A stretch of DNA of 64,000 nucleotides from Sphingomonas sp. 28-63-12 (GTDB taxonomy: Bacteria; Pseudomonadota; Alphaproteobacteria; Sphingomonadales; Sphingomonadaceae), in contig NCGD01000007.1 of NCBI GenBank assembly GCA_002281535.1, forward strand, positions 32,814 through 96,813. Reading direction: 5' to 3'. Below the pieces are notes generated by a model. The model saw only the letters and a list, made by a program, of their open reading frames with translations, did no database searches and had not been told where the DNA came from. The translations under genes and the position numbers were made by a program. Positions 39,780-56,568 of the stretch are shown one piece after another. Positions within the stretch are counted from its first letter, which is position 1; every line of letters starts with the position of its first letter.

Positions 39780-40721
39780 CTACAGCTTTGCAATCCCCAA
39801 TGCCGCCGCCTCGCTTTGCAACCTGGCGGCTGCCGCCGGATTGGCAGCGATCGCATCGGCCAGCGCGCGCGATGCCTTGGCATTTTCGCCCAGCGTCTTG
39901 CGGCTGCGCATCAGCATCACCCAGCCATCAATATTGCCCGGATTGGCGCGCAGCTTGGCCTCGAGCTGGCCGACCATCTGTTGCGCCATCATGTCCTGCT
40001 GGCTCGGCGTCAGCGCGGCGGCTGCGCGCATTTGTTCGGGCGATGGCCCGGGAATCGCCGCCCCGCCGGCCAGCGCGCCGGCCATGGTCGGGTGGCTGGC
40101 GGCGGGCGCCAGCTTGGCAAGCGGCGCGGTCACGTCGATCTTGTTGATCTTGGCGACCTGGGTGATCGTGCGCCGCAGATCATTTTCCCAGGTCGCGCCC
40201 GGCGGGGTGTCCTTCAACAGCGCCAGCCAGTCGTTGATCGCGCCCTGATGGTCGCCGCTCAAATCGCGGGCGACGGCGGTGAAATAGCGGCTGCGCGGGT
40301 CCTTGGGATCGATCGTCAGCGCCTTGCGAAACGCGGTCAGCGCGGCCGGCGGCATCGGATCGCGCGGGCTGGCCATCACCCGGGCCTCGCCAAGCGCCGA
40401 CCAGATATCGGCCCGGCCCGGTGCGGCGACGCTGCCCTTTTCCAGTGCGACAACCGCCTCGTCAAACCGGCCCTTGGTAAACAGCGCGTCCCCCAACGTG
40501 GCCCAGGCATTGCCGTCACCCGGGGAGGCCTGAGCGCGCGCCTGCAGCGTCTCGATTGGCTGTGGCTGAGTCGCGATTGTCCCCGTTTTGGCCGCCATTT
40601 TGGCCACGGGCGCGGTGCCATTTGCCTGGATCATCGAATATCCAATCGCCAGAATCAGCGCCACAGCGGCCGCGCCCAGCAGCCATTGTCCTCTTACTAC
40701 ACCATTATTTTTTGTATTCAT
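39780..40721 (-). CDS. TPR protein resembling cytochrome c biogenesis factor CcmI/CycH
   Basis: A 313-residue protein with one N-terminal transmembrane helix (WLLGAAAVALILAIGYSMI) and a periplasmic TPR domain (NAWATLGDALFTKGRFDEAV, ADIWSALGEARVM). C-terminal repeats include GNIDGWVMLMRSRKTLGENA. This is the layout of the CcmI/CycH C-terminal module, which delivers apocytochromes to the haem ligation machinery; the usual two-helix CcmI-1 region is reduced. It is divergent from the cytochrome-rich operon by 141 bases, so a link to that system is plausible. No other ccm genes are present. Confidence 0.75.
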   Translation of the reverse strand: MNTKNNGVVRGQWLLGAAAVALILAIGYSMIQANGTAPVAKMAAKTGTIATQPQPIETLQARAQASPGDGNAWATLGDALFTKGRFDEAVVALEKGSVAAPGRADIWSALGEARVMASPRDPMPPAALTAFRKALTIDPKDPRSRYFTAVARDLSGDHQGAINDWLALLKDTPPGATWENDLRRTITQVAKINKIDVTAPLAKLAPAASHPTMAGALAGGAAIPGPSPEQMRAAAALTPSQQDMMAQQMVGQLEAKLRANPGNIDGWVMLMRSRKTLGENAKASRALADAIAANPAAAARLQSEAAALGIAKL

Positions 40722-40862: not shown

Positions 40863-43319
40863 ATGGTGGATCGCGTTCGAGTCGCGATAATCGGCTCGGG
40901 TCCTGCGGGATTGAGCGCGGCTGCACGGGCGGCCCAGCTCGGGCTTTCGCACGTCCTGCTCGAAAAGACCGACCATCTTTCTGATACGATCTACAAATAT
41001 CAGAAGGGCAAGCACGTCATGGCGACGCCCAGCAAGCTGGTGCTGCGCTCGGATCTCGATTTCGATGCCGGCAAGCGCGAAGTCATCCTGAAGACGTGGG
41101 ACGAACAGGCCGTCGGCAACAAGGTCAACGTCCGCTATCGCAGCGAAGTGAAGGCAATCACCGGCGAACGCGGCGATTTCGCCCTGGCGCTCACCGATGG
41201 TACCGTCATCAACGCCGAATGCGTGGTGCTGGCGATCGGCACCCAGGGCAATCCCAATCTGATGCGCTGCGCCGGCGCTGACTTGCCGCATGTCCAGTAT
41301 CAGCTCGATGATCCGGGCGAATATGTCGATGAACATATCACCGTGATCGGGTCGGGCGATGCCGGAATCGAAAATGCGCTCGGCCTCGCGGCTGACAAGG
41401 CGCAGGGCAATGTCGTCACGATTCTCAATCGTTCGGCCGATTTTGCGCGTGCCAAAAGCGCCAATGTCAAATTGCTCAACGAAGCGGCCGATCAGGGCCG
41501 GGTGATCGTCCGGCTCAACACCACGCCGGGCGAAGTGCGCGAAGACGAATTGCTGCTCGAAACCCGCGACGGCACAGAGACGATCAAGTGCGACCGGATC
41601 ATCGCGCGCATGGGCTCGGCCGCGCCGCGCGCCTTTATCGAATCCTGCGGCATTGAATTCACCAGCGCCGATCGCGAAGCCTTTCCGAAATTGTCGCCTG
41701 AATTCGAGACCACCAAGCCGGGCATTTTCGTCATCGGCGCGCTGGCGGGCTATCCGCTGATCAAGCATTGCATGAACCAGGGCTATGACGTGCTCGAGTT
41801 CATCAACGGCAACACCACGCTCAAGCCCGCCGATGAACCTTTGCTCGAAGCCAAGTTCGAGGCGTTCAAGAAGATCCGCCGCTCGGTCGACGAATGGCTG
41901 GAGCTGCTGCGCACCAACATCAGCATCCTCAATGAGCTGTCGCCGCTGCAGATGCGCGAATTCGTGCTCGATTCCGAAGTGCGCCCCTACAAGGCGGGCG
42001 AGGCGATCATCAAGCGCAACGAGCCGGGATCGTCGCTGCTCTGCATCGCGCAAGGCTCGGTGCTGGTCGAGGTCAACCCGGCCGATCCGAAGGTCACCAT
42101 TCCGATCCCGCAAGGGTCGATCTTTGGCGAGGTCGGGCTGATCTCGGGCCGTCGCCGTGGCGCCACGGTGCGGGCGGGCACCGATTGTATCATCGTCGAA
42201 GTGTCGCGCACAGCTGCGCTGAAGCTGATGGCGTCGGTGCCGGCGGCCAAGCGCGCGGTCACGCGTATTTCAGTCGAACGGCAATTGCTGCAGATGTTCA
42301 AATCGGGGCTGCTGGCGAGCGATCTGGTCGAGCTGCTCGATACCCATGAAATCGTCAATGTCCGCGCCGGTGAGGCGATCATTACCGAAGGCGAGGCCAG
42401 CGACGATGTGTTCGTCATCCGCATCGGCAGCATGATCGTCGAGAAGAATGTCGCCGGCAAGCCGGTGTTCCTCTCCTATCAGCCGGCCAGCACCTATGTC
42501 GGCGCGCTGTCGCTGCTGTACGGTGGCCGGCGGACCAAGACGGTGCGTGCCGCGGTGAAGTCGGAAGTGATCAAGCTGCAGGGCGCGGCGTTCCGTCGCC
42601 TGCTCGAGGCCAAGCCGGCGCTGATGGAAAAGGTCCGCGCCGACATGGCCGGGACGCAGAATGTCCACGCCTTTGTCGAAAGCCGCAAGGACAGCCACTC
42701 GGAAGTCTTCAACGTCCATTCCGAAACTGCGCGTTTCCTGGTCGATAACGGGATCGGCGAGGCGACCGACGTGTTGCTGATCGACGAAAAGCTCTGCATC
42801 GGCTGCGACAATTGCGAAAAGGCCTGCGCCGACAGCCATGAAGGACTGTCCAGGCTCGATCGAGAAGCCGGCAAAAGCTACGCCCACCTCCATGTCCCCA
42901 CCAGTTGCCGCCACTGTGAACATCCCCACTGCATGGCCGATTGCCCCCCCAACGCCATTCAGCGCGGCTCAAACGGCGAAGTGTTCATCGAAGACACGTG
43001 CATCGGTTGTGGCAATTGCCAGCGCAACTGCCCTTATGGGGTAATCCGGATGGAAGCCCGGCCGCCTGTCAAGCCTGGCCTGCTGAGTTGGATGATGTTC
43101 GGCAAGGGCCCAGGGCCCGGCGAGCCGTCGAAAAAATGGCGCTACAAACATGCGACACCAGGCGTTGATGTGCCGAAAAAGGCCGTAAAGTGCGATATGT
43201 GCTCGTCGATCAAGGGTGGGCCCGCCTGCGTGCGTGCTTGCCCGACGGGGGCGGCGATCCGGATCGCGCCGGAAAGCTTCCTGACGATCGCCGGCTTGCA
43301 AGAGGAGGACCGGTCATAG
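40863..43319 (+). CDS. FAD/NAD(P) oxidoreductase - two cyclic-nucleotide-binding domains - four-cluster ferredoxin fusion
   Basis: An 818-residue cytoplasmic electron-transfer protein. Residues 1-320 are a two-dinucleotide-fold flavoprotein (AIIGSGPAGLSAAARAA and TVIGSGDAGIENALGLA) without a redox CxxC, so it is not a thioredoxin reductase. Domain two (about 355-465) is a cNMP-binding fold with IFGEVGLISGRRRGATVRA, which keeps the phosphate-binding Glu and Arg. A second cNMP fold (about 480-575) has YVGALSLLYGGRRTKTVRA and lacks the FGE. Residues 640-805 carry sixteen cysteines in four 4Fe-4S motifs, as in DmsB/NrfC-type subunits. The ATG at 40863 follows GGGGGGA. It heads the operon with the b-cytochrome gene. 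Confidence 0.88.
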   Translation: MVDRVRVAIIGSGPAGLSAAARAAQLGLSHVLLEKTDHLSDTIYKYQKGKHVMATPSKLVLRSDLDFDAGKREVILKTWDEQAVGNKVNVRYRSEVKAITGERGDFALALTDGTVINAECVVLAIGTQGNPNLMRCAGADLPHVQYQLDDPGEYVDEHITVIGSGDAGIENALGLAADKAQGNVVTILNRSADFARAKSANVKLLNEAADQGRVIVRLNTTPGEVREDELLLETRDGTETIKCDRIIARMGSAAPRAFIESCGIEFTSADREAFPKLSPEFETTKPGIFVIGALAGYPLIKHCMNQGYDVLEFINGNTTLKPADEPLLEAKFEAFKKIRRSVDEWLELLRTNISILNELSPLQMREFVLDSEVRPYKAGEAIIKRNEPGSSLLCIAQGSVLVEVNPADPKVTIPIPQGSIFGEVGLISGRRRGATVRAGTDCIIVEVSRTAALKLMASVPAAKRAVTRISVERQLLQMFKSGLLASDLVELLDTHEIVNVRAGEAIITEGEASDDVFVIRIGSMIVEKNVAGKPVFLSYQPASTYVGALSLLYGGRRTKTVRAAVKSEVIKLQGAAFRRLLEAKPALMEKVRADMAGTQNVHAFVESRKDSHSEVFNVHSETARFLVDNGIGEATDVLLIDEKLCIGCDNCEKACADSHEGLSRLDREAGKSYAHLHVPTSCRHCEHPHCMADCPPNAIQRGSNGEVFIEDTCIGCGNCQRNCPYGVIRMEARPPVKPGLLSWMMFGKGPGPGEPSKKWRYKHATPGVDVPKKAVKCDMCSSIKGGPACVRACPTGAAIRIAPESFLTIAGLQEEDRS

Positions 43320-44197
43320 CCAGTCGCGCCGACGCTCGCGCTTCGCGCCGCCAGCAACGTACTGCTGAGCACGAAGGATTCCTGCGCTATGCTGGTTTCC
43401 GTTGGCTCAAGCTGTCATTGATTCTCAGCGCGACCGCGCTGCTCACCTATATGCTGATCGATATTCGGCCGCGGCCCAATGGTGGTAGCTGGTATGGCTA
43501 TACCCTTGGCACGATCGGCCTGGTGCAGATCCTGTGGCTGACGATGCTCGGCGTGCGCAAACGGGCAATGACGAGCGGCCGCTGGTCGCTCAAGGCCTGG
43601 ACGAGCGCACATGTCTATCTGGGGTTGAGCCTGATCGTCATCGCGACGTTGCACACCGGTTTCCAGTTTGGCTGGAACGTCCACACGCTGGCCTATGCGC
43701 TGATGATGGTGGTGATCCTGTCCGGGATCTGGGGCGTAAGTGCCTATGCGACGATCCCGTCTTCGCTGAGCAGTAACCGTCAGTCGATGACCGAAGGGCA
43801 GATGCTCGAATCGATCCGGTCGGTTGATCGGCAACTGCACGATGCTGCACAGCCGCTCGACGCCGATATGTCGCGGCTGGTGCTGGCCTCCCTTGAACAG
43901 GATCCATTTGGCGGCGGCCTGTTGGTGCGGCTATCGGGTCGGGACCGGCGCTGCGCAACTCAGCGTGCCTATCGTGCGGTGCGGCAGCTTTCGTCCGAAC
44001 AAGCCGATGGCAGCGCCACGGTGATCAAGCGGGTCGACGAGCTGCTGGATCGGAAAAAGGCGGCACTCGGCCAATTGCGGCGGCATTTGCGCCTAAAGGC
44101 GCTGCTGGAGCTTTGGCTGTACGTCCATGTCCCGGTGACATTCATCCTGATCGCTGCGCTGACCGCGCATGTCGTCAGCGTCTTCTTCTACTGGTGA
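43316..44197 (+). CDS. Multi-pass membrane b-type cytochrome-like protein
   Basis: About 293 residues with five predicted helices. Helix three has His-X13-His in SAHVYLGLSLIVIATLHTG. The last helix has His-X13-His in YVHVPVTFILIAALTAHVVS. Two helices with this spacing would hold two stacked b haems, as in ferric-reductase or NOX-type cytochromes. A soluble loop of roughly 120 residues separates them. The start is odd: a strong AGGAGG (43303-43308) sits seven bases before ATA 43316, which overlaps the upstream TAG; the frame is also open back to GTG 43190. I use ATA as the best-placed site. It probably passes electrons from the ferredoxin fusion to periplasmic cytochromes. Confidence 0.72.
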   Translation: MASRADARASRRQQRTAEHEGFLRYAGFRWLKLSLILSATALLTYMLIDIRPRPNGGSWYGYTLGTIGLVQILWLTMLGVRKRAMTSGRWSLKAWTSAHVYLGLSLIVIATLHTGFQFGWNVHTLAYALMMVVILSGIWGVSAYATIPSSLSSNRQSMTEGQMLESIRSVDRQLHDAAQPLDADMSRLVLASLEQDPFGGGLLVRLSGRDRRCATQRAYRAVRQLSSEQADGSATVIKRVDELLDRKKAALGQLRRHLRLKALLELWLYVHVPVTFILIAALTAHVVSVFFYW

Positions 44198-44204
44198 GCG
44201 CGGC

Positions 44205-46025
44205 ATGAAACCCTTTTTGATTCGGCGCATCAGCACCACTGCCGATGGCCGCGAAATCGTCCGCGATGCGCCGGCGACCCGCGATCTCGTGCTGGTTGGT
44301 CGCGCCGCGACCAATGATATTGCGTTGCCGGATCTGGGGGTTGATCCCGAACATCTGCAGATCGAGCATAGCAGTGATGGCCGGGTGCTGGTGACGGCGA
44401 CGGGCAGCAACGGCTTCCTCGTCGGCCGGCGCCGCCGCAAACAGGCTGTGATCGATCCCGATCAGGGTGGTGATATCGGCCTGGGCGGCCACCGCATCAC
44501 GATGACGCGCGATGTCGGCGGCGAAATTGTGCTGACGGTGCAGCGCATCGCCGCGATTTCAAAGGCGGCAGAGGAGCGCGATGAGACCAAGGCGTTCTCG
44601 CTGCGCGGGCTGATCCCGGCCAAGCGCGGGACGGCCTGGGCACTGGCGATCGCGGTCCTGATTGGCTTTCTGGCCATTCCTGTCTGGGCGGCGTTTCAGA
44701 AGCAGCATCACGATGCGCGCACCATCTATGCCGCCAAGAGCGACACAAGCTGGTCGAGCGGGCCGCTCAGCCAGGCGCATCATGCGCTCGAGGGCAATTG
44801 CGAAGCCTGCCACAAAAAGGCGTTCGTCTCGGTCCGCGACGAAACGTGCCAGTCCTGTCACAAGGACGTGCATGACCATGCACCGCCCGCCCGGCTCGGC
44901 AAGGCACGGGCGACGCCCGGTTTTGGCGGCCAGATATTGGTAAATGTCGCCAAGGCATTTGGCAAAGAAGGGCCCGGCTCGTGCGTTGCCTGCCACACCG
45001 AGCATGAAGGCGCGGGGCCCATGCCGGCGACAGCCCAGGCTTTTTGCAGCGATTGCCATGGCACCCTCAACCAGCGGTTGACCGATACCAAATTGCCCAA
45101 TGCCGCCGATTTCGGCACTGAGCATCCCCAATTCCGGCCCTTGATTGCCATGGTGCCGGGCGCCAAGCCGGTGATGGTCCGCGCCTCACTCGATACCAAG
45201 CCGATGGACGATAGCGGTCTGAAGTTCACCCACAAACTGCATCTCGATGCCCGCGGTGGAGTCGCCGCGATGGCGCGCAGCCTGAAGGGCAGCAAGGGCT
45301 ATGGCGATGTCCTGGTTTGCGCCGATTGCCATACGCCCACCGCAGATCGCACCCGCTTCCTGCCAGTCGACATGGAAAAAAACTGCCAAGCCTGCCACAG
45401 CTTGGCGTTCGATAAGGTCGGCGGCACCACGCGCACGCTGCGGCATGGCGATACTGCCCAGATGATCGCCGATCTGCGCGCCTTTTATCGTTCGACCAGC
45501 CCGGCTAGGCCGATCAATCTAGGCGGTATGGAGCGGCGGCGGCCCGGCATTTATGCGGAAGGTCAGACGTATAGCGCCTATTTCGGCGCGGTTGGCGCCC
45601 GAGGCTCGGCAGGTGACGCCGCAGTGCGCGCGGTCTTCTCTCCCGGCGGTGCCTGCTATGATTGCCATCTGGTCAAACCGCCGGGTGCAGGTGCGCCTGA
45701 TTGGTCGGTGGTCCCGGTCAATCAGCCAATGCGCTACATGATGCATGGCTGGTTTGATCATAATGCCCATGCGACAGAAACGTGCGCAAGCTGCCACGCC
45801 GCGGCGAAGTCCACCAAGGCGACTGACTTGCTCCTGCCTGGGCTAAAATCCTGCCGAAGCTGCCATGGCGGTGAAGCGTCTGCAGCCAAGGTCCCCTCGA
45901 GCTGCGCGATGTGCCATAGCTACCACGCCAAGCAGGATGCGCCGTGGAAGCCACAGCATGACGGCGCGCCGTCCAGCCCGTTGCTGATGGTACCGAAGCC
46001 GGGCGATACGGCGTCGCTAAACTAG
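44205..46025 (+). CDS. FHA-like domain / transmembrane / decaheme c-type cytochrome fusion
   Basis: A 606-residue protein. Residues 10-105 look like a forkhead-associated domain (VLVGRAATNDIALPDLGVD, later ATGSNGFLVGRR), but the canonical Ser-x-x-His is replaced, so phosphothreonine binding is uncertain. One helix (about 143-165, GTAWALAIAVLIGFLAIPVW) follows, then a periplasmic part with ten CXXCH haem motifs (CEACH, CQSCH, CVACH, CSDCH, CADCH, CQACH, CYDCH, CASCH, CRSCH, CAMCH). The FHA part would face the cytoplasm. The ATG lies eight bases after the b-cytochrome stop. This would take electrons from the membrane cytochrome. Confidence 0.88.
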   Translation: MKPFLIRRISTTADGREIVRDAPATRDLVLVGRAATNDIALPDLGVDPEHLQIEHSSDGRVLVTATGSNGFLVGRRRRKQAVIDPDQGGDIGLGGHRITMTRDVGGEIVLTVQRIAAISKAAEERDETKAFSLRGLIPAKRGTAWALAIAVLIGFLAIPVWAAFQKQHHDARTIYAAKSDTSWSSGPLSQAHHALEGNCEACHKKAFVSVRDETCQSCHKDVHDHAPPARLGKARATPGFGGQILVNVAKAFGKEGPGSCVACHTEHEGAGPMPATAQAFCSDCHGTLNQRLTDTKLPNAADFGTEHPQFRPLIAMVPGAKPVMVRASLDTKPMDDSGLKFTHKLHLDARGGVAAMARSLKGSKGYGDVLVCADCHTPTADRTRFLPVDMEKNCQACHSLAFDKVGGTTRTLRHGDTAQMIADLRAFYRSTSPARPINLGGMERRRPGIYAEGQTYSAYFGAVGARGSAGDAAVRAVFSPGGACYDCHLVKPPGAGAPDWSVVPVNQPMRYMMHGWFDHNAHATETCASCHAAAKSTKATDLLLPGLKSCRSCHGGEASAAKVPSSCAMCHSYHAKQDAPWKPQHDGAPSSPLLMVPKPGDTASLN

Positions 46026-46037
46026 GAAGCGTAGCGT

Positions 46038-46886
46038 GTGTTGATTGCCCAGATTACCGATCTTCATGTCGGTTTCGTGCCGGGTGATCCCGATGAGCCC
46101 AATTGCCAGCGACTGGCGACAGTGCTGGCGACGTTGATCGACGGGCCGAATCGCCCGGATCTGCTGATGGTGACGGGTGATATTGCGGACAATGGCGACG
46201 AGGATAGCTATGCGCGGGCGGCAACGATCCTCGCGCGGTGCCCATTTCCAGTCTACCCCTGCCTTGGCAATCATGATGACCGGCGCCATTTCAGCCGCTA
46301 TTTTCCGCAAGTGCCGTTTCGCGACGGCTTTGTGCACTATACCGTCCGGCTCGACGGGCTGCGGCTGATCGTACTCGATACGCTCGAGCCCGGCCGGCAT
46401 GGCGGGGGTTTTTGCGCAACGCGTGCCAGTTGGCTGCGCGCCCAGCTTGATGCCGATCGCGATACGCCGACGGTGATTGTGATGCATCATCCGCCGTTCG
46501 ACGCCGGCATCGCATGGATGTCCGGAGGCGTCGACGAGCCTTGGGTCAGGCGTTTTAAGGCCGCGATCGAGGGCCATGGCCAGCTTCGGGCAATCTGGTG
46601 CGGGCATCTCCACCGGCCGATCGCCGCAGCATGGCACGGCGTGACGGTAACCGTGTGCCCCGCTAGCGCGGCCCAGCTAGCGCTCGATCTCCGTCCGATC
46701 GATCCTGAGCTGCCCGATGATCGACCGATGATTGTCGCTGATCCGCCAGGCTATGCGCTCCACCGCTGGCAGGACAATCAGCTCGTCAGTCTGTTCGACA
46801 CCGCCGAGGCGCATGGTACGCTCGCCCGTTTCGACGCCGGACTTCAGCCACTGGTGCGCCATCTGGCCCAAGAGCGCGGCGCCTGA
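46038..46886 (+). CDS. CpdA-like class III cyclic nucleotide phosphodiesterase / metallophosphoesterase
   Basis: A 282-residue calcineurin-fold phosphoesterase starting at GTG 46038. All metal motifs are intact: QITDLHVGF, VTGDIADNG, CLGNHDDRRHF, VMHHPPFDAG and WCGHLHRPI. This set matches the CpdA/Icc group that hydrolyses cAMP. It lies 12 bases after the FHA-decaheme gene. With a cNMP-binding redox protein at the head of the same operon, degradation of the ligand of that protein is a natural reading; substrate specificity is inferred, not shown. Confidence 0.88.
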   Translation: MLIAQITDLHVGFVPGDPDEPNCQRLATVLATLIDGPNRPDLLMVTGDIADNGDEDSYARAATILARCPFPVYPCLGNHDDRRHFSRYFPQVPFRDGFVHYTVRLDGLRLIVLDTLEPGRHGGGFCATRASWLRAQLDADRDTPTVIVMHHPPFDAGIAWMSGGVDEPWVRRFKAAIEGHGQLRAIWCGHLHRPIAAAWHGVTVTVCPASAAQLALDLRPIDPELPDDRPMIVADPPGYALHRWQDNQLVSLFDTAEAHGTLARFDAGLQPLVRHLAQERGA

Positions 46887-47226: not shown

Positions 47227-50200
47227 TTACTTCCCAGGCAATTTCATCGGTGCCCGCCATGCTGTCATGTCGACCTCGTCGCTCACCTTATAGGGCGTTC
47301 CCCGGCTGGTGAGGAACAGCTTTTCCATTTCCGGCCGCGTAAAGGGGCGCGACCCGAGCCGACCGAAGACGGCGATCTGGCCACCGGTTTCATCAACCGC
47401 CCGATCACGATCGAGTCCCTTTGACAGCGCCAGCGCCGGTGATGGTGTCTTCGCCCAGGCAATCAGCTCGGGCTTGGGCTGGGGGGAGAAGCCATAGAAA
47501 TTGGGCTGGCTTGCCGGCGATGTCAGCTGGAGCACCTTCAGGCCGTTGCGGCCATCGGCGACATAAGCGAACAGCGAGGCATTGGTGCTGCCGACGATCA
47601 CGTCCTGCGCATCGTTCAGCTGACCGTCGAGGGTCACCTTCTGGTACATCACTGGCCGGGTCGGGTTGGTTACGTTGACGATGGCGAGGCCATCGGCGCC
47701 AGCCGCGACATAGGCATATGTCCGCGCGACATAGAGCCGGCGAGCATTGGCGAGCGATATCGTGCCCGATGGCACCGCGACCGGATTACGCAGCTGGGTC
47801 ACGTCGAACAATTTCACGCCATCGGCATCGGTGACCCAGAGATAGCGGAACTGGATCGCGCTGGCGCGGGCATCCCTCATCGGGCGCACCGCGGCGAGCT
47901 TGGGGTGGAGGGGGTCGGACAGGTCGACGACCACCAGGCCGACATCGGCGGTGATATAGGCGACCTGGCCAGCCAGGATGATATGCCGCGCCCCCTTCAG
48001 GACGCCATCTTCGTTCCAGGTAACGGCGCGCTTCAGGAAATTGTTCTGGAAGTTGCCATCGGCCATCGTCTCGACGTTAACGAGGATCAGACCCTCTTCC
48101 GCATCAGTGATGGCAGCATAGCTATAGATCGGGAAGAAGGCCTGTTCCTGATTGATCTTGCGGAGTTCGGGCGTGCTGCGGAGTGGGTTGATCGGCTGGT
48201 CGGTCGGCAACGCCATGCAGGTCGCGTTGCTGCTGGCGACATGCGTATCGTGGCCGAGCGGCGAGAAGGGCGCCGTCAGGATACGCTCCGACACGCTCTT
48301 GTTGGCAATCGACGCCACGTCATAGACGCGAAAGCCGCCACGCCCTTCGGCAACATACATATATTCGCCGCGCATTTGCAGGCAGTTAACGGAATCGGCG
48401 GTGCCCTGAACGATGTTGCGGAACTCCTCCATCGCGTGGGTTTCGCCCGATAGGTGCTTATCGAAGGTCTTGCCCCGCACCCAGTTCTTCAGCTCGCGTT
48501 TGTTGCGCTCGACATGCTGCTTCCAATAATCCGGGAAGGCATATTTCTGGAGATAGGAACCGATTACCGTCTGGGGTTCGTCCCATTCGGTTACGCGCAC
48601 AGCCTCAAAGCCGCCGGCCAGACCGGTCCAGGCATTCAGCCCGACAAAGTTGACCGAATTTGTGCCGAGCAGCAGCAGTTGGGCCATGATCGCATTGTTA
48701 TCGTCCTTCTTGGACAGATGGCAGTCGCTGCAGGTCTTGGTCTCGGTGGTCCGCACGGTGTGCGGGAAGTGGGGCGCAAAGGCCTGGCTCGAAAAGCCGA
48801 TGCCGCTGATCGGCGGCTGCTGGATATAGATACGCTCGCGGTTGACGTTGGTGGATGACAGGATCAGCGCCGAGGTACTGCGCACCGGGGTGGTGACATT
48901 GCCCTTGGTCGTCATTCCCTTGCCGAGCTGGAACATGTCATCGCGTGCGACCTGCGGGTTATAGGTCGCGAAATTGCGGGTTTCCTCCCCCTCGAAATGG
49001 TGGCTGCTGGTCTTCCAGTTTGCCTCGATCGGCAAATGGCAGCCGCCACAGCTCGTGGTCCAGCTCAGATGGCAGGTGAAACAAGTGACAGAATCTTCGC
49101 CATGCGCGCGCTCGCCCGGCAGCACGCCGGGCCCAAACGCGAAATTGCCGTCCTCGCCGCCCAGCTTGCTCATCAGCTTGGCGCGCGCGGCCTTGGCATT
49201 GAAATAGGGGCTGGCGGGATCGACGCTGTCTTTGACGAGGTGCACATCCCATTCGATTTTCGGGTCGACCAGCGATCGCTGGACGAGCTTGCGGCGCCCG
49301 CCATCGGTGGGGATCCATTCGAACCGGCGCTGGCCATCGGGATTGCGCAGCAACGACAGGTCGTTGCCGCCCGGTCGGGCGGCCGGGCCCGAGGTGCGCA
49401 GCGTTGGATAGGCATCGGCGGTGCCGTGGCAATCCTTGCAGCCAATCTCGACCGCATTGGCAACCTCACCATAGATCAGGCCATTGCCATGGCTGTCCTG
49501 CGCAAAATGGCAATCGGCGCATTGCAGGCCCTTTTCGGCATGGATATCCATCAGATGGACGGCCTTGCCGGGGTTGGTCCCGGGCGGAACAAACTTTGGC
49601 TCGTCCTTTTTGCGCCATTTCTCGGGATCGTCATTGGCGACGATCTTGCCCTCGGCATCGAGCAGATTGCCCTCGCGGTCGCGCTTGAAGATCCCCCGGA
49701 AATTCCAGCCATGGCTGTGATAATCCGCGAACTGGGTGTCTTTCAGTTTCGGGTTGAGATCATAGACGTTGCGCAGGAAATCGGGGTCGCCCCAGTTGCC
49801 GCGGACGGCAGCAGCTTCGGGATTGCGATCGTTGACCTCACGGACTTCGGCGGCAGTCGGGTATTTCTGCTTCTTCGGCCACATCGAGGGCGCGTCGGAT
49901 TCATAATCCCACATGGTATAGCCAAGGTAGGAATTCAGGAAGATGTTGGGCTGGTGCATGTGGCAGCTCATGCACTGCGATGTCGGGATAGAGCGCGTGA
50001 AGCTGTGGCGCAGCGGATGGCCGCTTTCCTTCATGCCGGGCTGAACGAGTCCGCCATGGCCTGCAGGCGCATGCTCTTCGGCCTTGGCATCATGGCCGCC
50101 GCTGTCCGCCATCTTGGCGGCGATGGTCGGATCGACGCTTGCCGATTGCCCGTCGCGGCCAAATTGCGCGTAGATCAGGCTGTGGCGGGGTTCGCGATCA

Positions 50201-51243
50201 TTGGCGTAAACCACATGACAGCCGGTGCAGCCTGATCCGCGATAGTCGCCTGGCTGCTCGTTGGTGCCCATGAACCACATCAGCGGATCGTTGAGGCGGG
50301 TCTTGTGGATATTCAGCACCGGAATCGCCACGCGCAGGCCCGTGCCCGGGCCGCGGTTGGATTGCTTGATGTCGGGGCGCCCCGGTTCTTCCAGCCGCTG
50401 AATCTGGCCCAGCGAGTTGGGCAGGCCGACTTCGGCGAAATTGGTATTGATGTTGCGGCCGCCGCGCTCGAACACGCGGAAGATGTCGCCCGGCGGGATG
50501 ACCTGCCATGTCGGCAAAGGATAAAGCGCCGCGAGCGCGCCGCGCTTGGCCTCGGCATCGGTCACCGTGCCCGGCGGTGAGCCCGGGGACACGATCTTGG
50601 CGGGCTCGCCGTCTTCGGTATAGGCCTCGCCAAAAATGTAGTTCTTGAACGGGACGACGCCGTTATTATACGCGGCCCCGCCCCACAGCATTGCCCCCGA
50701 CGCCATGATTGACCGCTCAGCGGCTTCGATGGTCTCGATATGGCAGGCCCCACAGGATTCGCGGGCGACGCGGTAGTCACCGGGGTTCACGAAGCGGATA
50801 TATTCCGGCGCTTCACGGTTGAGCAATGTGTAGCTGCGCTTGGGATTGGCCGAGCTGGGATAGTTCCAGCTATGCGGGAGGCGCGGCAGAACATGCGCCT
50901 GATCGCGCGCGGTCACATAGGCGGCATCGTCAAAGCCGTGGCTCGGATCGCCTTTGATCGATGCATTGCCGCCATGGCAATCGGTACAGCCCAGCATCAC
51001 GGCCGGGGTCGCGTGCATCGATGGCTCGTCGGTGCGGGTATGGCACGAATAACAGCCTTCCGATTTACCCGCGACCATCGCCGCTGTCTGGCTCATCGGG
51101 GCCGGCGGAGTGTCGAGATAGACCCGCGCAACCGGCTTTTCGGCATCATTGGCATAGAGGATGGCGGCCGGCAGCATCAGCGCTGCGAACACCAGCAGCA
51201 GCCAGCTGGCAGCCCGGGCGGAAAGAGCAGCGCGTGTCGGCAT
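47227..51243 (-). CDS. Large exported decaheme c-type cytochrome with C-terminal LVIVD-repeat propeller
   Basis: A 1,338-residue protein with a signal peptide (SARAASWLLLVFAALMLPAA, cleavage near YANDA). Ten CXXCH motifs spread over residues 64-840: CYSCH, CTDCH, CGACH, CTGCH, CMSCH, CADCH, CKDCH, CFTCH, CGGCH and CSDCH. The last third (about 960-1240) has LVIVD-type repeats such as VAYITADVGLVVVDLSDPLH and TYAYVAAGADGLAIVNVTNP, likely a beta-propeller. The ATG at 51243 overlaps the barrel gene stop by one base (TGATG). The protein is probably extracellular or periplasmic and linked to the barrel; the electron acceptor is unknown. Confidence 0.88.
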   Translation of the reverse strand: MPTRAALSARAASWLLLVFAALMLPAAILYANDAEKPVARVYLDTPPAPMSQTAAMVAGKSEGCYSCHTRTDEPSMHATPAVMLGCTDCHGGNASIKGDPSHGFDDAAYVTARDQAHVLPRLPHSWNYPSSANPKRSYTLLNREAPEYIRFVNPGDYRVARESCGACHIETIEAAERSIMASGAMLWGGAAYNNGVVPFKNYIFGEAYTEDGEPAKIVSPGSPPGTVTDAEAKRGALAALYPLPTWQVIPPGDIFRVFERGGRNINTNFAEVGLPNSLGQIQRLEEPGRPDIKQSNRGPGTGLRVAIPVLNIHKTRLNDPLMWFMGTNEQPGDYRGSGCTGCHVVYANDREPRHSLIYAQFGRDGQSASVDPTIAAKMADSGGHDAKAEEHAPAGHGGLVQPGMKESGHPLRHSFTRSIPTSQCMSCHMHQPNIFLNSYLGYTMWDYESDAPSMWPKKQKYPTAAEVREVNDRNPEAAAVRGNWGDPDFLRNVYDLNPKLKDTQFADYHSHGWNFRGIFKRDREGNLLDAEGKIVANDDPEKWRKKDEPKFVPPGTNPGKAVHLMDIHAEKGLQCADCHFAQDSHGNGLIYGEVANAVEIGCKDCHGTADAYPTLRTSGPAARPGGNDLSLLRNPDGQRRFEWIPTDGGRRKLVQRSLVDPKIEWDVHLVKDSVDPASPYFNAKAARAKLMSKLGGEDGNFAFGPGVLPGERAHGEDSVTCFTCHLSWTTSCGGCHLPIEANWKTSSHHFEGEETRNFATYNPQVARDDMFQLGKGMTTKGNVTTPVRSTSALILSSTNVNRERIYIQQPPISGIGFSSQAFAPHFPHTVRTTETKTCSDCHLSKKDDNNAIMAQLLLLGTNSVNFVGLNAWTGLAGGFEAVRVTEWDEPQTVIGSYLQKYAFPDYWKQHVERNKRELKNWVRGKTFDKHLSGETHAMEEFRNIVQGTADSVNCLQMRGEYMYVAEGRGGFRVYDVASIANKSVSERILTAPFSPLGHDTHVASSNATCMALPTDQPINPLRSTPELRKINQEQAFFPIYSYAAITDAEEGLILVNVETMADGNFQNNFLKRAVTWNEDGVLKGARHIILAGQVAYITADVGLVVVDLSDPLHPKLAAVRPMRDARASAIQFRYLWVTDADGVKLFDVTQLRNPVAVPSGTISLANARRLYVARTYAYVAAGADGLAIVNVTNPTRPVMYQKVTLDGQLNDAQDVIVGSTNASLFAYVADGRNGLKVLQLTSPASQPNFYGFSPQPKPELIAWAKTPSPALALSKGLDRDRAVDETGGQIAVFGRLGSRPFTRPEMEKLFLTSRGTPYKVSDEVDMTAWRAPMKLPGK

Positions 51244-53099
51244 CAATAGCTCACGATAAGGTTGGCCAGGATCGAGTAGTAAAGTCGATTCCGGTTGTTG
51301 TTAGCGAACAGGTCGCGAAAGCCGGCGCCGGGGACGAGCACCGCGCCCGAAAGTCGCCCGACGATGTTCTGGGTTGCCTTGGGCCGCCAGATGATCGCCG
51401 ATGACAGATCATAGCCGATCGATTTGGGAATGCTGCCCTCGACGCGCAGCGCCTGAAGGGTTTCGGTGGTCGCAAACCACAGATGATTGGCGTTGACCGA
51501 AACCCGCAAGGTCGGCTTCAGATCGAAATCGATACCGACGCCAAGCAGTGCGGTACCGGGGTTGTTGAAGTTCGACTGTCCCTGTTCCTTGCTGGTCCGC
51601 AGCGAATTGAGGATGCCATTGCGCCCGTTCAGGGCGATCGCGCGGCCACCGCCGGCGAAGGGAATGGTCTGCCGGATCCAATAGCTGGTGTCGGCGCCAG
51701 CGAAGATCGGGTTTTCGAAGATCGCGTCAAAACCGGTTTCAACATTGTCGAAGGGCTTGTTGTCACCGCTGGCATAGAGCCCCGAGGCGCGGATACGGAT
51801 CCAGTTGCGATCATAGCTCAGCTCGGCAGCGCCAAAATAACCCCTGATCTGCGCGGGCTTGCTGGTGAAGAAATTGTTCCGGTCCTGCCCCAGCGCGCCA
51901 TAGATTGACGCGGTCAGGTTCAGCCGACCAAGCCGGCCGTCGACATTATAGCCCAGGTAGACGACATCATAATCGCGCCCGCGCAAGTCACCGATCAGGG
52001 CAGGGCGGACAGGAAAGCCGTTGGTATCTACTTCGATCCGACCGCCCTCGCGGTTGAGATTATAGACCGCGGTGATCTGGCTGGTCAGGCCGGGAAACAG
52101 GAAATCCTGGCGATAGACATTGGCCACGAAGACGAAATCGTCGCGCGGCCGCTTGAGGACGCTGTTCAGACCCGAATTGGTGTCCTTTTCCAGCCGCCAG
52201 AAGGCGGCGAGATTGAACTGAAAGCGGTTGTCGTCGCGGTTGCCGAAGAAACGGATGCCGAGCTGCTGGTCATTGAACAGAAAGCCGCGAAAATCGCTCT
52301 GGAAGGGCTGGATGCCAACACGGATCGATTCGAAATCATAACGATCAGAGGTGTTGCGCAAATGATAGTCGACGAAGAGTTCCTGCACGCCGACAAAGGC
52401 ATCGGTGCGCACGGTGCCCTTGCTCGGCTGGACATACAACACGCGGCGTTCGGGTACCGAGACATGGTTGAGGTTGAACGCCAGCGCGATGCGATATTCG
52501 ATCTCGGGCGGCTTGAAGGCCGTCGATCCCTTGACCAGCGACGCGCCAATGATGAACGTCTGCGAGTAAACCTGGCTGGTATCGCCCCCAAACACGTCTG
52601 AGCTGCCCGGACGCTCGGTGGTTTGCACTCCAACCGGAATCGGGAAGCTGCGCGGCTCGATTACGCTGTCGCTCACCGCACTCAGCGTGAAAAACCAGTC
52701 GTCGCCATGAAGCGGCAGCCAGGGCAGCTTCTTCACATCGATCGGGCGATCTCCCTTCAGCGTGTTCTGGTGATACGGATCGAGCCAGCGCTCTTTGACC
52801 ACGCCTAGCGATTCGATCAGGCGCCAGCGATCCGGCAAGGGAATCTGGTCGGTCGGAAACGCCTCGGGCCGGGGCGCGCGGACGGCACCGGGATTATTCT
52901 GGGTAATCGGTTCGGGCAGGGGCTTTTCAAAGCCCGGACGCTTGCGCCCCTCAAGCGTTTCGTTTGGCTCGACGTCCGCCGTCGGCGCCGCTTGCGGCGC
53001 TGCCGGCGGCGCCTGCAGCTGGGGTTTGGGCTCGGGCGGGGCAGACTGTTCAGCGCCGCTAGCGGCCGTAATCAGCCCGAGAAAGAGCATCGCCGCCAC
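51243..53099 (-). CDS. Predicted outer-membrane beta-barrel protein of cytochrome conduit
   Basis: A 618-residue protein with a short signal peptide (AAMLFLGLITAASG), a proline-rich N-terminal stretch to about residue 60, and from about residue 140 alternating amphipathic strands (FNLAAFWRLEKD, DFVFVANVYRQDFLFPG, LNLTASIYGALGQ, WIRIRASGLYASGD). It ends SILANLIVSY with a terminal aromatic. I do not recognise a named porin family. It starts with GTG directly after the upstream TAA and ends in a one-base overlap with the decaheme gene. Sitting between cytochrome genes, it is a good candidate for the outer-membrane sheath of a porin-cytochrome complex. Confidence 0.78.
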   Translation of the reverse strand: MAAMLFLGLITAASGAEQSAPPEPKPQLQAPPAAPQAAPTADVEPNETLEGRKRPGFEKPLPEPITQNNPGAVRAPRPEAFPTDQIPLPDRWRLIESLGVVKERWLDPYHQNTLKGDRPIDVKKLPWLPLHGDDWFFTLSAVSDSVIEPRSFPIPVGVQTTERPGSSDVFGGDTSQVYSQTFIIGASLVKGSTAFKPPEIEYRIALAFNLNHVSVPERRVLYVQPSKGTVRTDAFVGVQELFVDYHLRNTSDRYDFESIRVGIQPFQSDFRGFLFNDQQLGIRFFGNRDDNRFQFNLAAFWRLEKDTNSGLNSVLKRPRDDFVFVANVYRQDFLFPGLTSQITAVYNLNREGGRIEVDTNGFPVRPALIGDLRGRDYDVVYLGYNVDGRLGRLNLTASIYGALGQDRNNFFTSKPAQIRGYFGAAELSYDRNWIRIRASGLYASGDNKPFDNVETGFDAIFENPIFAGADTSYWIRQTIPFAGGGRAIALNGRNGILNSLRTSKEQGQSNFNNPGTALLGVGIDFDLKPTLRVSVNANHLWFATTETLQALRVEGSIPKSIGYDLSSAIIWRPKATQNIVGRLSGAVLVPGAGFRDLFANNNRNRLYYSILANLIVSY

Positions 53100-55061
53100 T
53101 TAAAGTCCCTCGCAGACATCTTGTGCCGCCGTGTCGAGGAACGGCGCAAACGGGCAACCTACATAGCGCAACCGGACTTTGGCATCGCCGAGGTCGACGA
53201 CCACCTGGTCAGACCGGATTGCCGCTGGTGCGTGGTTGATCCCGCCGAGCCGGGCGGCGGCATTGGCCACGCCCAGAAAGCCAATCATGTCATCTTGATC
53301 GATACCGTCACCGGAAACGCCGATCCCGCCGATCAGCTGGTTGCCACGATAGACCGGAAAGCCGCCAGGGAAGATCTGCAACCCGTTGGCCAGTCGATTG
53401 AGTCCCGGTGTCGTCGTCGGCAATCGGGTGCAGCCCCGCGCGGTATCATTGGTATTCCCCGCGACGAACAGCAGATGTTCGGCCAGATTCTGCAGGATCA
53501 GCGAGGATTGCAGGCCGGTTGCAAACGGGTTGAACTGATCAATCGCCGGCGACAATGGTCCCGGCGGCCGCCCGATCTCCCCGTCGGGAAAATAGGGCCG
53601 CTCGAGCAGGCCGACAGCGCGCACGCCATAGGCGACCGTGCCCGTCAACGCCGTCGGGTCATTCAGAAAGGCCCGAAAGCGCGGGACATAGGCGCGCACA
53701 TTATCGGTCGGATCGGCGAGCATGTCGGCGCTGGCGCGGGCATGCGAAAAGAACATTGCCGTTCGCGCCTTTTGCAGGCTGACATCGGTACCGAACACGG
53801 GCGCGTCGGGTGCGCGCACCACGCCGAGCACGGCGCCGTTGGTATCGACCAGGCTGATCGATACCTGCGCGCGGCTATCGAGCGGCTGGCGGATCGATCC
53901 GCGCGCGCGGCTCATGATCGTAAAAGCCTGCTCCAGCATTGTCCGGGCTTCGGTGGCGGTAATTGCAGGGATGCCGGTCTCGGTGCCGCCGCGGATCGGG
54001 AAGCGATCCGTCCCTGCACCGTCCGACAGCACAAAGGCGTCGCGATTGGAGAATTCGGCTGCTGCCGCTGGCCGGATACCTGATGCCTCGGTGCCGTAAA
54101 CCGCGCCGGGAATGATTGGGCCACTCGTATAGCCACGGACGGCAAGGAAATTGCCGGTGCTGCTGAGCGTTACAAAATCCGGGGTTGCGCCGGTATGGAC
54201 AAAGGCCGACGGCGCGGCATCGCTATACCGCAGGAATGTCCCGTCGAGGGAGATTCGGTTCGCCCGGATCGTGTCAGGGGCATCGAAGCCAATCGTGCCG
54301 GCCAGCGCAATAAATTCATCGTCGCTGTTATCGAGATCGAGAATATTGGTGTCGGAGCCATAAATGCCGTCTGACATGACGCCGATGCCGCCGACCAGCA
54401 CGCCGTTCTTGTAGAGCGGAAAGCCGCCCGGATCGGCCGAAAGCCCCAGTGGCGAGCGTTTCGGGCCGATCAGCGCGCTCGAGCCGCCAGTGCCGAAGCG
54501 TGTATTGAGATCGGAGCAGGGCAGCGAGCTGAACTGCACTCCATAAAGCTTGCCGCTTTCCAGGCCCGCTGTCGTCGGTGCTGGCGGAAAATGTTCCTGG
54601 ACGATCATGCTGGCGGTGCGCGTCGAAAAGGCATTGCCGCCGCTCGACAGATAGGCGCCGGTCACCGCCTTGGCGATCGCGGCGACCGATGATGGCACGG
54701 GCAGGTTCTGCGCGTCGGTATTGATCCCATTGGGCGCCGGGTCGGTAAAGGTCGTTGCCCGCGCCCCGGTCATCGAAAAGACCGTAAGGACGTTGCCGAC
54801 CCGGTCGGTGACCGCGATGACGGCCGGCTTGTTGCGGGCCTTCGCCTCAAAGATCGCGCCGGCAAGGATTGCCTGAACGTCACTGATGCTCAGTGATTCG
54901 GCGGCCGGCACGGCATAGACGCTGCTCGGGGTCGGGCTCGCCGAAGGGCTGGGCGACGGCGTCGGCGCATTCACCGCGCTGCTCGTGCCGCTGCCGCCGC
55001 TGCACGACGCCAGGATCAGCGCGCTGCTGGCGACCAGGGTGGTGGTAAAGCGCGGACGCAT
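53100..55061 (-). CDS. Lipoprotein with two GlcG/HbpS-like (haem-degrading/haem-binding) domains
   Basis: A 653-residue predicted lipoprotein (ALILASCSGGSG, cysteine near residue 20) with a Ser/Pro linker. Two GlcG/HbpS-type units follow: the first around 58-245 (SDVQAILAGAIFEAKARNKP to GGFPLYKNGVLVGGIGVMSD), the second around 375-605 (ATEARTMLEQAFTIMSRARG to GGFPVYRGNQLIGGIGVSGD). The paired glycine-rich segments show an internal duplication. HbpS-like proteins bind haem and iron in other bacteria. The ATG shares a base with the upstream pentaheme stop (TGATG), and its TAA is followed at once by the barrel gene start. Confidence 0.82.
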   Translation of the reverse strand: MRPRFTTTLVASSALILASCSGGSGTSSAVNAPTPSPSPSASPTPSSVYAVPAAESLSISDVQAILAGAIFEAKARNKPAVIAVTDRVGNVLTVFSMTGARATTFTDPAPNGINTDAQNLPVPSSVAAIAKAVTGAYLSSGGNAFSTRTASMIVQEHFPPAPTTAGLESGKLYGVQFSSLPCSDLNTRFGTGGSSALIGPKRSPLGLSADPGGFPLYKNGVLVGGIGVMSDGIYGSDTNILDLDNSDDEFIALAGTIGFDAPDTIRANRISLDGTFLRYSDAAPSAFVHTGATPDFVTLSSTGNFLAVRGYTSGPIIPGAVYGTEASGIRPAAAAEFSNRDAFVLSDGAGTDRFPIRGGTETGIPAITATEARTMLEQAFTIMSRARGSIRQPLDSRAQVSISLVDTNGAVLGVVRAPDAPVFGTDVSLQKARTAMFFSHARASADMLADPTDNVRAYVPRFRAFLNDPTALTGTVAYGVRAVGLLERPYFPDGEIGRPPGPLSPAIDQFNPFATGLQSSLILQNLAEHLLFVAGNTNDTARGCTRLPTTTPGLNRLANGLQIFPGGFPVYRGNQLIGGIGVSGDGIDQDDMIGFLGVANAAARLGGINHAPAAIRSDQVVVDLGDAKVRLRYVGCPFAPFLDTAAQDVCEGL

Positions 55062-56461
55062 CAGCGCAGGCTCCGGATGCTGCGCACAGCGCTGGCGAGC
55101 GCGGTACGGAATTCGGGGGGGCGATAGCCATTGGGCTCGCGGACGGCCGCATAAGCCCGGTTGATGTCGGCGCGAATGCCGGCGGCGGCGCCGATCGTGA
55201 CCCGGCCCTGTTTGACCAGCGCATTGAGCAGCGAATCGATTGCCATCACGGCCTGAACTGACCCTTCATAATCGGTGAAGCGCGGTGCCGAGCTTGGCCC
55301 GGCGATCGAATCGACAATTGCAAAGGCGGTATCGCTCGTGCCGGTTTGTGCTGACAGGGCGGAGGCCAGCGCGCTTGCCGTTGAGGCGAGGCGGACGGCG
55401 GCCGCGACCGACAGGCTGCGGCTTCCCGCCATGGCGAGATGAAAGGCGCGCGCATCCTTGTCGAACCGGGTCGCCAACGCTGGCGATGTGACCCGCGCCG
55501 CTGCCGAGAGCAGGATCATATTCTCGTCGTTGAACGGCGGCATGCCAGCCGGGATCGGGCGGCCGGGGTTGGTTTCCCAGGTTTTTACCCGGTCCTCCTG
55601 ATCGAAGATGCGCCGGTGGCAGCTGTGGCAATCGAGAAAATAAAATTCGGGAAAGGCACCCTCGGTGCCCAGGCCCGGATCGGCATAAAGCGTCAGCGCA
55701 CGATTGACCGCCATTGCCTGGCCGACCGCCCAGAGCCGAACATTGTCGGTCCGGCCCTTGCGCGCGGCATAGTCGCTATCTTCGTTGTGATGCTGCTGCA
55801 GCGTCGAGAACAGGTCGAGCTCGAAATTCACGCGCGGATGGCCAGCGGCCATGATCCGGTGGGTGACGAACTGGCCCGGCCGCTTGCTGCCATAATGACA
55901 ATCAAGGCACAGGCCGGCGCGCACGCTGGCTCGTTCAAGCGGGATCATGCCACGGGCGACATTATCGCTGTGGCTAGCGCCAACCGCATAATGAGATGCG
56001 ATCCAGCCGCCGGCCGGGCCGTGGCAGGCCTCGCAGCCGACGCCGTCCTTGGTCAGGAAGCGGGCGCCGGTTGCGCCATTGGTTGGTGTTGCATGGCAGC
56101 CGAGACAGGCCGGTGCGCTGGTCGGGTCGCCCATCCCCAGCGTCGCCGTTATCTGCCGCGCGCGCTGCCCGAGCAGCACCGAAAAGGCGCGGCTATGCGC
56201 GCCCGCCTGGCTGGCAGGATCTTGCCAGCGCATCAATTCATCTTGCCGGACCACGGCGCCATCGGCTTCCATCCGCCCATGGCAGGTAGAGCCGGCGCAG
56301 CTGGCGACGCCTTCAAAGCGCGAACTGCCTTCGCTCGGCGCCGCACCGGCACGCGAGCCGGCGACGCCGATCGACAACGCACACATCGACAGGAAAAGAA
56401 CAAATAGCGCTGCAGCCGGCCTGCCCGCGCGACGGGCGCCGATGCGATCCCCCGAATTCAT
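55061..56461 (-). CDS. Pentaheme c-type cytochrome, cytochrome c554-like
   Basis: A 466-residue exported protein with signal ALFVLFLSMCALSIGVAG. It has four CXXCH motifs (CLGCH, CEACH, CLDCH, CHSCH) and one CX4CH (CAGSTCH) near the start of the mature part. The run HSRAFSVL...CLGCHATP...GVGCEACHGPAGGW...CLDCHYGSKRPGQF resembles cytochrome c554-family modules. The C-terminal 180 residues lack haem motifs and look helical. The ATG at 56461 follows GGGGGGA. First gene of the leftward operon pentaheme-HbpS-barrel-decaheme; no promoter was picked out with confidence. Confidence 0.88.
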   Translation of the reverse strand: MNSGDRIGARRAGRPAAALFVLFLSMCALSIGVAGSRAGAAPSEGSSRFEGVASCAGSTCHGRMEADGAVVRQDELMRWQDPASQAGAHSRAFSVLLGQRARQITATLGMGDPTSAPACLGCHATPTNGATGARFLTKDGVGCEACHGPAGGWIASHYAVGASHSDNVARGMIPLERASVRAGLCLDCHYGSKRPGQFVTHRIMAAGHPRVNFELDLFSTLQQHHNEDSDYAARKGRTDNVRLWAVGQAMAVNRALTLYADPGLGTEGAFPEFYFLDCHSCHRRIFDQEDRVKTWETNPGRPIPAGMPPFNDENMILLSAAARVTSPALATRFDKDARAFHLAMAGSRSLSVAAAVRLASTASALASALSAQTGTSDTAFAIVDSIAGPSSAPRFTDYEGSVQAVMAIDSLLNALVKQGRVTIGAAAGIRADINRAYAAVREPNGYRPPEFRTALASAVRSIRSLR

Positions 56462-56568
56462 GCAGCGTTTCCCCCCTTCATCGCCGGACAAAATGTCACG
56501 GCGCCTCGCTTTGGACGCGTGCAACCCCGCTACCGATGTTGCCCCAATTACGCCCGATCGAACAGCAA

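Follow-up and report, generated by a model that had tools for sequence, protein, structure and literature searches.

The 64,000-nucleotide stretch of DNA from Sphingomonas sp. 28-63-12 analysed here (the window; its genome is labelled G000 and its contig terminates at base 64000) carries at 40863-46886 four genes on the + strand, which we call A, B, C and D, and beyond them at 47227-56524 a block of four genes on the - strand, N1 to N4. A encodes a fusion of flavin, cyclic nucleotide monophosphate (cNMP) binding and iron-sulfur domains, B a membrane protein, C a multihaem c-type cytochrome and D a phosphoesterase, and with N1-N4 they make a candidate electron-transfer system. The four co-directional open reading frames (ORFs) were picked out in an original prediction made from the sequence, which was confined to them. 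The frames are there; however N1-N4 belong to the system too, A-D being the inner-membrane half and the second block the other half. The gene cluster is conserved in sphingomonads and some other bacteria and is seemingly undescribed: no paper joining these parts was found in the literature searched (a limited collection), in keeping with the earlier view that no described pathway with this set is known, and a term search of PMC11475568 gave no sphingomonad names. Judged by their titles and the opening of their abstracts, the papers that did come up deal with electron transfer in other settings or with other matters.

Genes A to D

Gene A (40863..43319, + strand) encodes in a single chain of 818 amino acids (aa) an FAD/NAD(P) part, two cNMP domains (cNMP1 and cNMP2) and a part with four 4Fe-4S clusters, as judged from the ORF and Pfam. 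The matches are to Pyr_redox_3 (1.6e-30), cNMP_binding (5.7e-27, two stretches) and Fer4_7 (4.3e-12), and each of the 16 Cys in its four 4Fe-4S motifs is present in 87/87 A proteins, which bears out the predicted composition. The 87 aligned proteins are those of the window, of 80 named loci and of six distant loci, the named loci being the best 80 of at least 555 stretches encoding an A relative, with 64-79% identity to the window and flanks of up to 10 kb. For B, D, N1 and N4 residues were counted after dropping sequences that a locus end truncates or that reach less than 70-80% of the length of the reference, and the C counts are without L071, L073 and L115, which are truncated by contig ends.

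The flavin part of A (residues 5-307; 40875..41783) has the two dinucleotide-binding regions of the YpdA/Bdr bacillithiol disulfide reductases by Pfam and alignment. It scores 124.7 bits with TIGR04018, under the family cut-off of 339.9, and among solved structures 7a7b is nearest to it. Every Gly tested at the FAD and NAD(P) sites is in 87/87, as are R190 and F194, with K198 in 86/87; these three are similar to the NADPH motif seen in thioredoxin reductases. The Cys of the Bdr motif GGGPCG is replaced throughout (Ala in 81, Gly in 4 and Ser in 2 of the 87, in an alignment that includes 7a7b). Disulfide reduction by that route is thus unlikely, and an exit of electrons to the 4Fe-4S clusters would be natural.

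The first cNMP domain (residues 374-457; 41982..42233) is PKA-R/PKG-like by Pfam, solved relatives and alignment, and the second (residues about 490-600; 42330..42662, ends approximate) was delimited by alignment; the nearest solved structures to these domains are PKA regulatory subunits and PKG. In cNMP1 G422, E423, R430, R432 and T435 are each in 87/87, and in cNMP2 R557 is in 87/87, E548 in 86/87 and A559 in 84/87. A therefore has the phosphate-binding-cassette Glu and Arg by which cNMP receptors of the PKA-R/CRP type are recognised, and is predicted to bind cyclic AMP (cAMP) or cyclic GMP. The window protein has Ala548 and Lys559 in cNMP2 (42504-42539), the sole loss of E548 among the 87; the A family thus keeps both pockets and the window copy probably one. 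As in the PKA regulatory subunit, PKG and CRP the fold carries the Glu/Arg cassette, in tandem domains, but in A these are fused to an oxidoreductase and do not act on a kinase or on DNA.

The four 4Fe-4S motifs (residues about 636-800; 42768..43262) are HycB/HydN/DmsB-like by family profiles and alignment. The scores lie below the NCBIfam cut-offs (61.9 of 260 bits for HydN, 57.6 of 214.1 for DmsB), and we describe the tail as HydN/DmsB-like and not as a member of either family. Residues 638-802 also match AegA at 7.3e-20, with 70.6 bits far under the cut-off of 1003. AegA and YgfT likewise join a HydN-like four-cluster domain to a pyridine-nucleotide flavoprotein on one chain. However their domain order is the reverse of that in A, and A differs further in its YpdA/Bdr-like flavin part, the tandem cNMP domains between this and the clusters, and its membrane partner B.

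Gene B (43316..44197, + strand) encodes a membrane protein with two H-X13-H helices, probably a di-haem cytochrome b by Pfam and alignment. The two predicted His-X13-His helices stood up well, His 99/113 and 271/285 being in 83/83 B proteins. The match to Ni_hydr_CYTB is borderline (8.7e-07, 29.3 bits against a cut-off of 30.1). A four-cluster ferredoxin beside a di-haem b membrane subunit is the arrangement of the beta subunit and cytochrome b of formate dehydrogenase-N and Hyb-type enzymes, from which our case differs in that B just falls short of that family; no molybdenum or nickel subunit was found among the neighbours scanned. A profile search of B against solved structures gave no match and no fold similar to its model reached significance (best E 0.18), the VIA rows resembling generic helical bundles.

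The apparent start of B overlaps the stop of A, and B has 293 aa if translated from the ATA at 43316. No ATG, GTG or TTG was found near the conserved start in the window. At 43301-43330 the apparent start is the ATA in tcATAGcc, preceded by AAGAGGAGG; tcATAG at the A/B junction is common to G043 and G047, and G019 has ATC. In 72 of 78 A/B junctions inspected there is an in-frame ATG, GTG or TTG close to this point. A near-cognate, translationally coupled start of B, common to close relatives, is possible from these sequences. A programmed frameshift at the junction was considered and set aside, as no slippery heptamer could be seen by eye and most relatives begin B conventionally.

Gene C (44205..46025, + strand; 606 aa) has, by Pfam and alignment, an FHA-like N-terminal domain, one transmembrane (TM) segment and a decahaem c region (Cytochrome_C7 2.9e-13, Cytochrom_c3_2 5.9e-13, FHA 7.2e-06). 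In 79/79 there are ten sites of haem attachment along with ten further His; the sites are all CXXCH in 78/79, and in L041 nine are CXXCH and one is C-x4-CH. The ten further His match the need of ten bis-His haems and are their predicted ligands. The FHA part retains GR in 79/79 and the His in 78/79. The usual phosphothreonine-binding motif is S-R-x-H. Its Arg is absent in 79/79 and its Ser present in only 3/79, and the FHA part is thus more likely a docking domain. The FHA-like/TM/decahaem fusion originally described is therefore confirmed in its domain and its ten haem sites, with an FHA part that departs from the usual binding motif.

Gene D (46038..46886, + strand; 282 aa) encodes a calcineurin-like phosphoesterase (SpdA/CpdA-like by Pfam and NCBIfam; Metallophos 1.8e-18). 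The metal motifs D-x-H, GD, GNHD, H and GHxH are in 69/69 D proteins, as expected of a calcineurin-like metallophosphoesterase. D had been called a CpdA-like phosphodiesterase. However SpdA gives it the higher score, 131.6 bits against a cut-off of 400, and CpdA 65.1 against 225, so that it is under both cut-offs.

The second block, linkage and distribution

N1 (47227..51246) is a decahaem c-type cytochrome with LVIVD repeats and a leader-like N-terminus by Pfam and alignment, with ten CXXCH in 40 of 42 near-full-length proteins; conservation suggests that further His of N1 may be haem ligands. Its top named family is ExtM of selenite/tellurite operons, with 59.8 bits far under the 800-bit cut-off, and a profile search of N1 gave no match. 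N2 (51243..53099), which adjoins N1 in the window and in relatives, is a probable outer-membrane beta-barrel whose model is AlgE-like (predicted local distance difference test score, pLDDT, 58); a profile search of N2 against solved structures gave no match. The fold and leader suggest an outer-membrane place for the pair. N3 (53100..55061) is an HbpS-like, haem-binding protein with a lipoprotein-like leader, and N4 (55061..56524) a c554-like cytochrome with four CXXCH and one C-x4-CH, both by Pfam and alignment. The C-x4-CH of N4 is kept in 5/5 aligned sequences, and there are perhaps five haems. All four genes are on the - strand.

Among the 80 named loci B is present in 77, C in 76, D in 68, N1 in 44 and N2 in 39, and U1, a divergent CcmH/CycH-type TPR protein of cytochrome c biogenesis type by Pfam (39780..40721, - strand), in 75. 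The three loci without B stop within about 140 bases of A, and one with B and without C stops right after B: A, B and C stay together in the named loci wherever the available DNA suffices, and the conserved linkage that had been proposed as a check on the operon was found. A, B and C are also together in five of the six wide distant loci, at 44-57% identity (G472, G252, G464, G132 and the C96 copy of G100), and a single open frame covers A and B in G132 and G251. In G464 the order on one strand is A-B-C-N3-N2-N1-N4, and G472 has A-B-C-N4-(a dehydrogenase)-N3-N2-N1. N1 is broken into two open frames in G047 and three in G049 (L025, L028), by either decay or an assembly error, with A, B and C present.

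In a sample of 100 relatives, comprising seven A-positive and 54 A-negative genomes of the genus and 39 A-negative genomes from other families of the order, N1 (called at E <= 1e-60) is present in seven, the same seven as A. In 398 genomes of the phylum it is in 11, all of them within the 15 that carry A. N1 and A can be unlinked, on different contigs in G491 and several hundred kb apart on the same contig in G312 and G445, and co-occurrence even then argues for a common function. In the family sample (199 genomes of at least 90% completeness, A called at E <= 1e-100) A is present in 75.

Class III cyclases

A cNMP receptor needs a cyclase, and we therefore searched for class III cyclases with PF00211. 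In the family sample they are in 75/75 A-positive and 14/124 A-negative genomes (Fisher 7e-41; 89/199 overall), and by genus in 38/38 A-positive against 10/53 A-negative (1e-16; 48/91 genera cyclase-positive), although related genomes are not independent and all our association p-values thus make the link look stronger than it is. Within the genus, in the sample of 100 relatives, the counts are 7/7 A-positive and 4/54 A-negative. A further 12 A-negative genomes of seven genera gave no cyclase (0/12), and ten of these are from genera that have A-positive species too (g1, g29, g30, g32 and g257). Outside the family all seven genomes with A have cyclases, at about 25 kb or less from A in G100, G357, G464 and G472, and G464 has a single cyclase.

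In at least 33 of the 75 family genomes a cyclase lies within 40 kb of A, where about 3 (mean 3.1) would be expected with random placement in a 3.4-Mb genome. Cyclases are rare in the flanks of up to 10 kb (6/80 named loci), and the claim of linkage thus rests on the wider distances. As a control we used the reaction-centre genes pufLM, dropping one match below the cut-off (G592). Cyclases are in 24/38 pufLM-positive and 65/161 pufLM-negative genomes, a weak association (p 0.018), and that of pufLM with A is similarly weak (21/38 against 54/161, p 0.016). In A-negative genomes only there is no association of pufLM with cyclase (3/17 against 11/107, p 0.41). The window genome has pufLM at G000:C26:30350-32013 and the organism may be an anoxygenic phototroph.

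Ten cyclases were read, eight from A-positive and two from A-negative genomes. Substrate choice is set by a Lys in the adenylyl type, and nine of the ten (L148-L156) have the metal Asp region and this adenine-type Lys in DKF[IV]GDA; the other, L157, is from an A-negative genome and is without the pattern. Pfam gave CHASE2 with the cyclase domain in 3/3 cyclases scanned. Two CHASE2 class III cyclases are encoded in the window genome, at C31:22484-24727 (L149) and C7:93970-95913 (L148), neither on the window contig. Contig C7 also matches weakly, at 25-45% identity, the f10, FhaC-like and f14 genes in the clusters of relatives. Control by cAMP is well supported by this genomic evidence, and as 75 of the 89 cyclase-bearing genomes sampled in the family carry the system, it would be a likely target for the family's class III cyclases.

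The proposed system, its alternatives and known relatives

We think it on balance probable that A-B-C and N1-N4 form one trans-envelope electron-transfer system under cAMP control. A would oxidise NAD(P)H at its flavin. The electrons would then run along its HycB/DmsB-like tail, with the four 4Fe-4S clusters, and reach the two b haems in B, from which they would go, directly or through quinone, to the TM-anchored decahaem C. By way of C and N4 they would arrive at N1, placed with the barrel N2 at or across the outer membrane, where a final acceptor at or outside the cell surface would be reduced. The route NAD(P)H to FAD to Fe-S to b to c that had been predicted fits the ligands, the A-B-C linkage and the single A-B frame in its order; its direction, as well as the order of carriers after B, we infer.

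Since the two PKA-R-like cNMP domains sit between the flavin and Fe-S parts, binding of cAMP, the presumed ligand, would open (or close) the flavin-to-cluster step, and by analogy with PKA the position suggests a hinge. A CHASE2-type membrane cyclase would make the signal on an extracytoplasmic cue and phosphoesterase D would reset it. The cNMP valve was part of the original prediction and gains from the co-occurrence of cyclases, while one of its two pockets is altered in the window copy. The bacteria of the sphingomonad family are mostly aerobic and are not regarded as electroactive. That in them cAMP from an envelope-sensing cyclase directly and allosterically gates electron export, through a receptor in the NAD(P)H dehydrogenase itself, is a more tentative proposal, to which we give slightly less than an even chance. 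If it is true, a second messenger gates an electron-transfer chain on the enzyme itself, beyond gene expression alone, and multihaem trans-envelope electron transfer extends to a large group of environmentally common bacteria.

Several observations weigh against this reading. The window's own cNMP2 has lost Glu548, B is without a confident structural relative, and N2 is AlgE-like at low confidence, which leaves passage across the outer membrane a prediction. D is truly absent from at least L066, L101 and L120 despite room for it; neither B nor C can be recognised alongside the second A copy of G100 (L042); and four genomes with A have no recognisable N1 (G100, G132, G251 and G252, all among the five most distant). 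With regard to the signal, cyclases are in 10/39 A-negative genomes of the order's other families and in the 14 A-negative genomes of the family, and are thus not exclusive to the system. In several relatives N4 is separated from the cyclase by FhaC-like genes and very long ORFs, which adjoin the cyclase in G582, G619, G491 and G312, and there it may serve those genes.

It is possible, but rather unlikely, that A-B-C are a regulated NAD(P)H-driven reductase for which N1 and N2 are a dedicated terminal reductase of one compound, such as a metal oxyanion, haem or an organic oxidant, and no general conduit. The ExtM family as the best named relative of N1, an HbpS-like N3 and an N2 that is not clearly a wide conduit barrel would all suit such a role. 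However the ten CXXCH of N1 suit a wire at least equally, and inspection by eye identified no catalytic-type haem motif.

We consider it improbable that the cNMP domains are structural and not a valve, with cAMP acting, if at all, through a transcription factor and the cyclase accompanying the secretion-like genes. In the four genomes just named the cyclase has FhaC-like genes and very long ORFs as neighbours, which fits that explanation, as does the altered cNMP2 of the window. However the cassette Glu and Arg of cNMP1 are kept in 87/87 and the Glu of cNMP2 in 86/87, all 38 A-positive genera have a cyclase, and the cluster in G554, G449, G493, G019 and G030 includes the cyclase with no very long ORF separating it from N4 or U1. 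More doubtful still is the same chain run inwards, from an extracellular or periplasmic donor through N1 and C to B, Fe-S and FAD to make NAD(P)H, since although the ligand sets do not fix direction and a phototroph with pufLM could use such input, for most donors the path, lacking a coupling site, is uphill, and none of the nine proteins scanned was recognised as a donor-oxidising enzyme.

The trans-envelope system that we favour has a near parallel in the Mtr and porin-cytochrome systems of Shewanella and Geobacter, which also have an inner-membrane entry, periplasmic multihaem proteins and a barrel with a large multihaem cytochrome. However entry in Mtr is by CymA, and here by an NAD(P)H flavoprotein/Fe-S/cytochrome b module with a cNMP receptor fused to the entry enzyme; no NapC-type family match was found in A, B or C (CymA was not sought elsewhere in the genome). 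MtrB-type barrels are wide, with about 26 strands, and N2 models as AlgE-like at low confidence. In Shewanella control by cAMP-CRP is transcriptional.

At the end of the window there is on the + strand an ORF, named by eye as filamentous-haemagglutinin-like, that is cut by the contig end (61745..64000); its membership of the cluster is uncertain. Elsewhere a plasmid search found A on 12 Sphingobium records, and the cluster is thus sometimes on large secondary replicons. One of these, NZ_CP020539.1 (L123) of Sphingobium herbicidovorans, is a 959-kb plasmid typed as conjugative that carries A-B-C-D and N1-N4-type genes, and 11 further large Sphingobium replicons carry A. In PLSDB the genes on pMSHV of S. 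herbicidovorans are labelled 'cyclic nucleotide-binding domain-containing protein', 'hypothetical protein', 'cytochrome c3 family protein' and 'metallophosphoesterase', and the remainder of the cluster 'multiheme c-type cytochrome', 'hypothetical protein', 'heme-binding protein' and 'cytochrome c family protein'.

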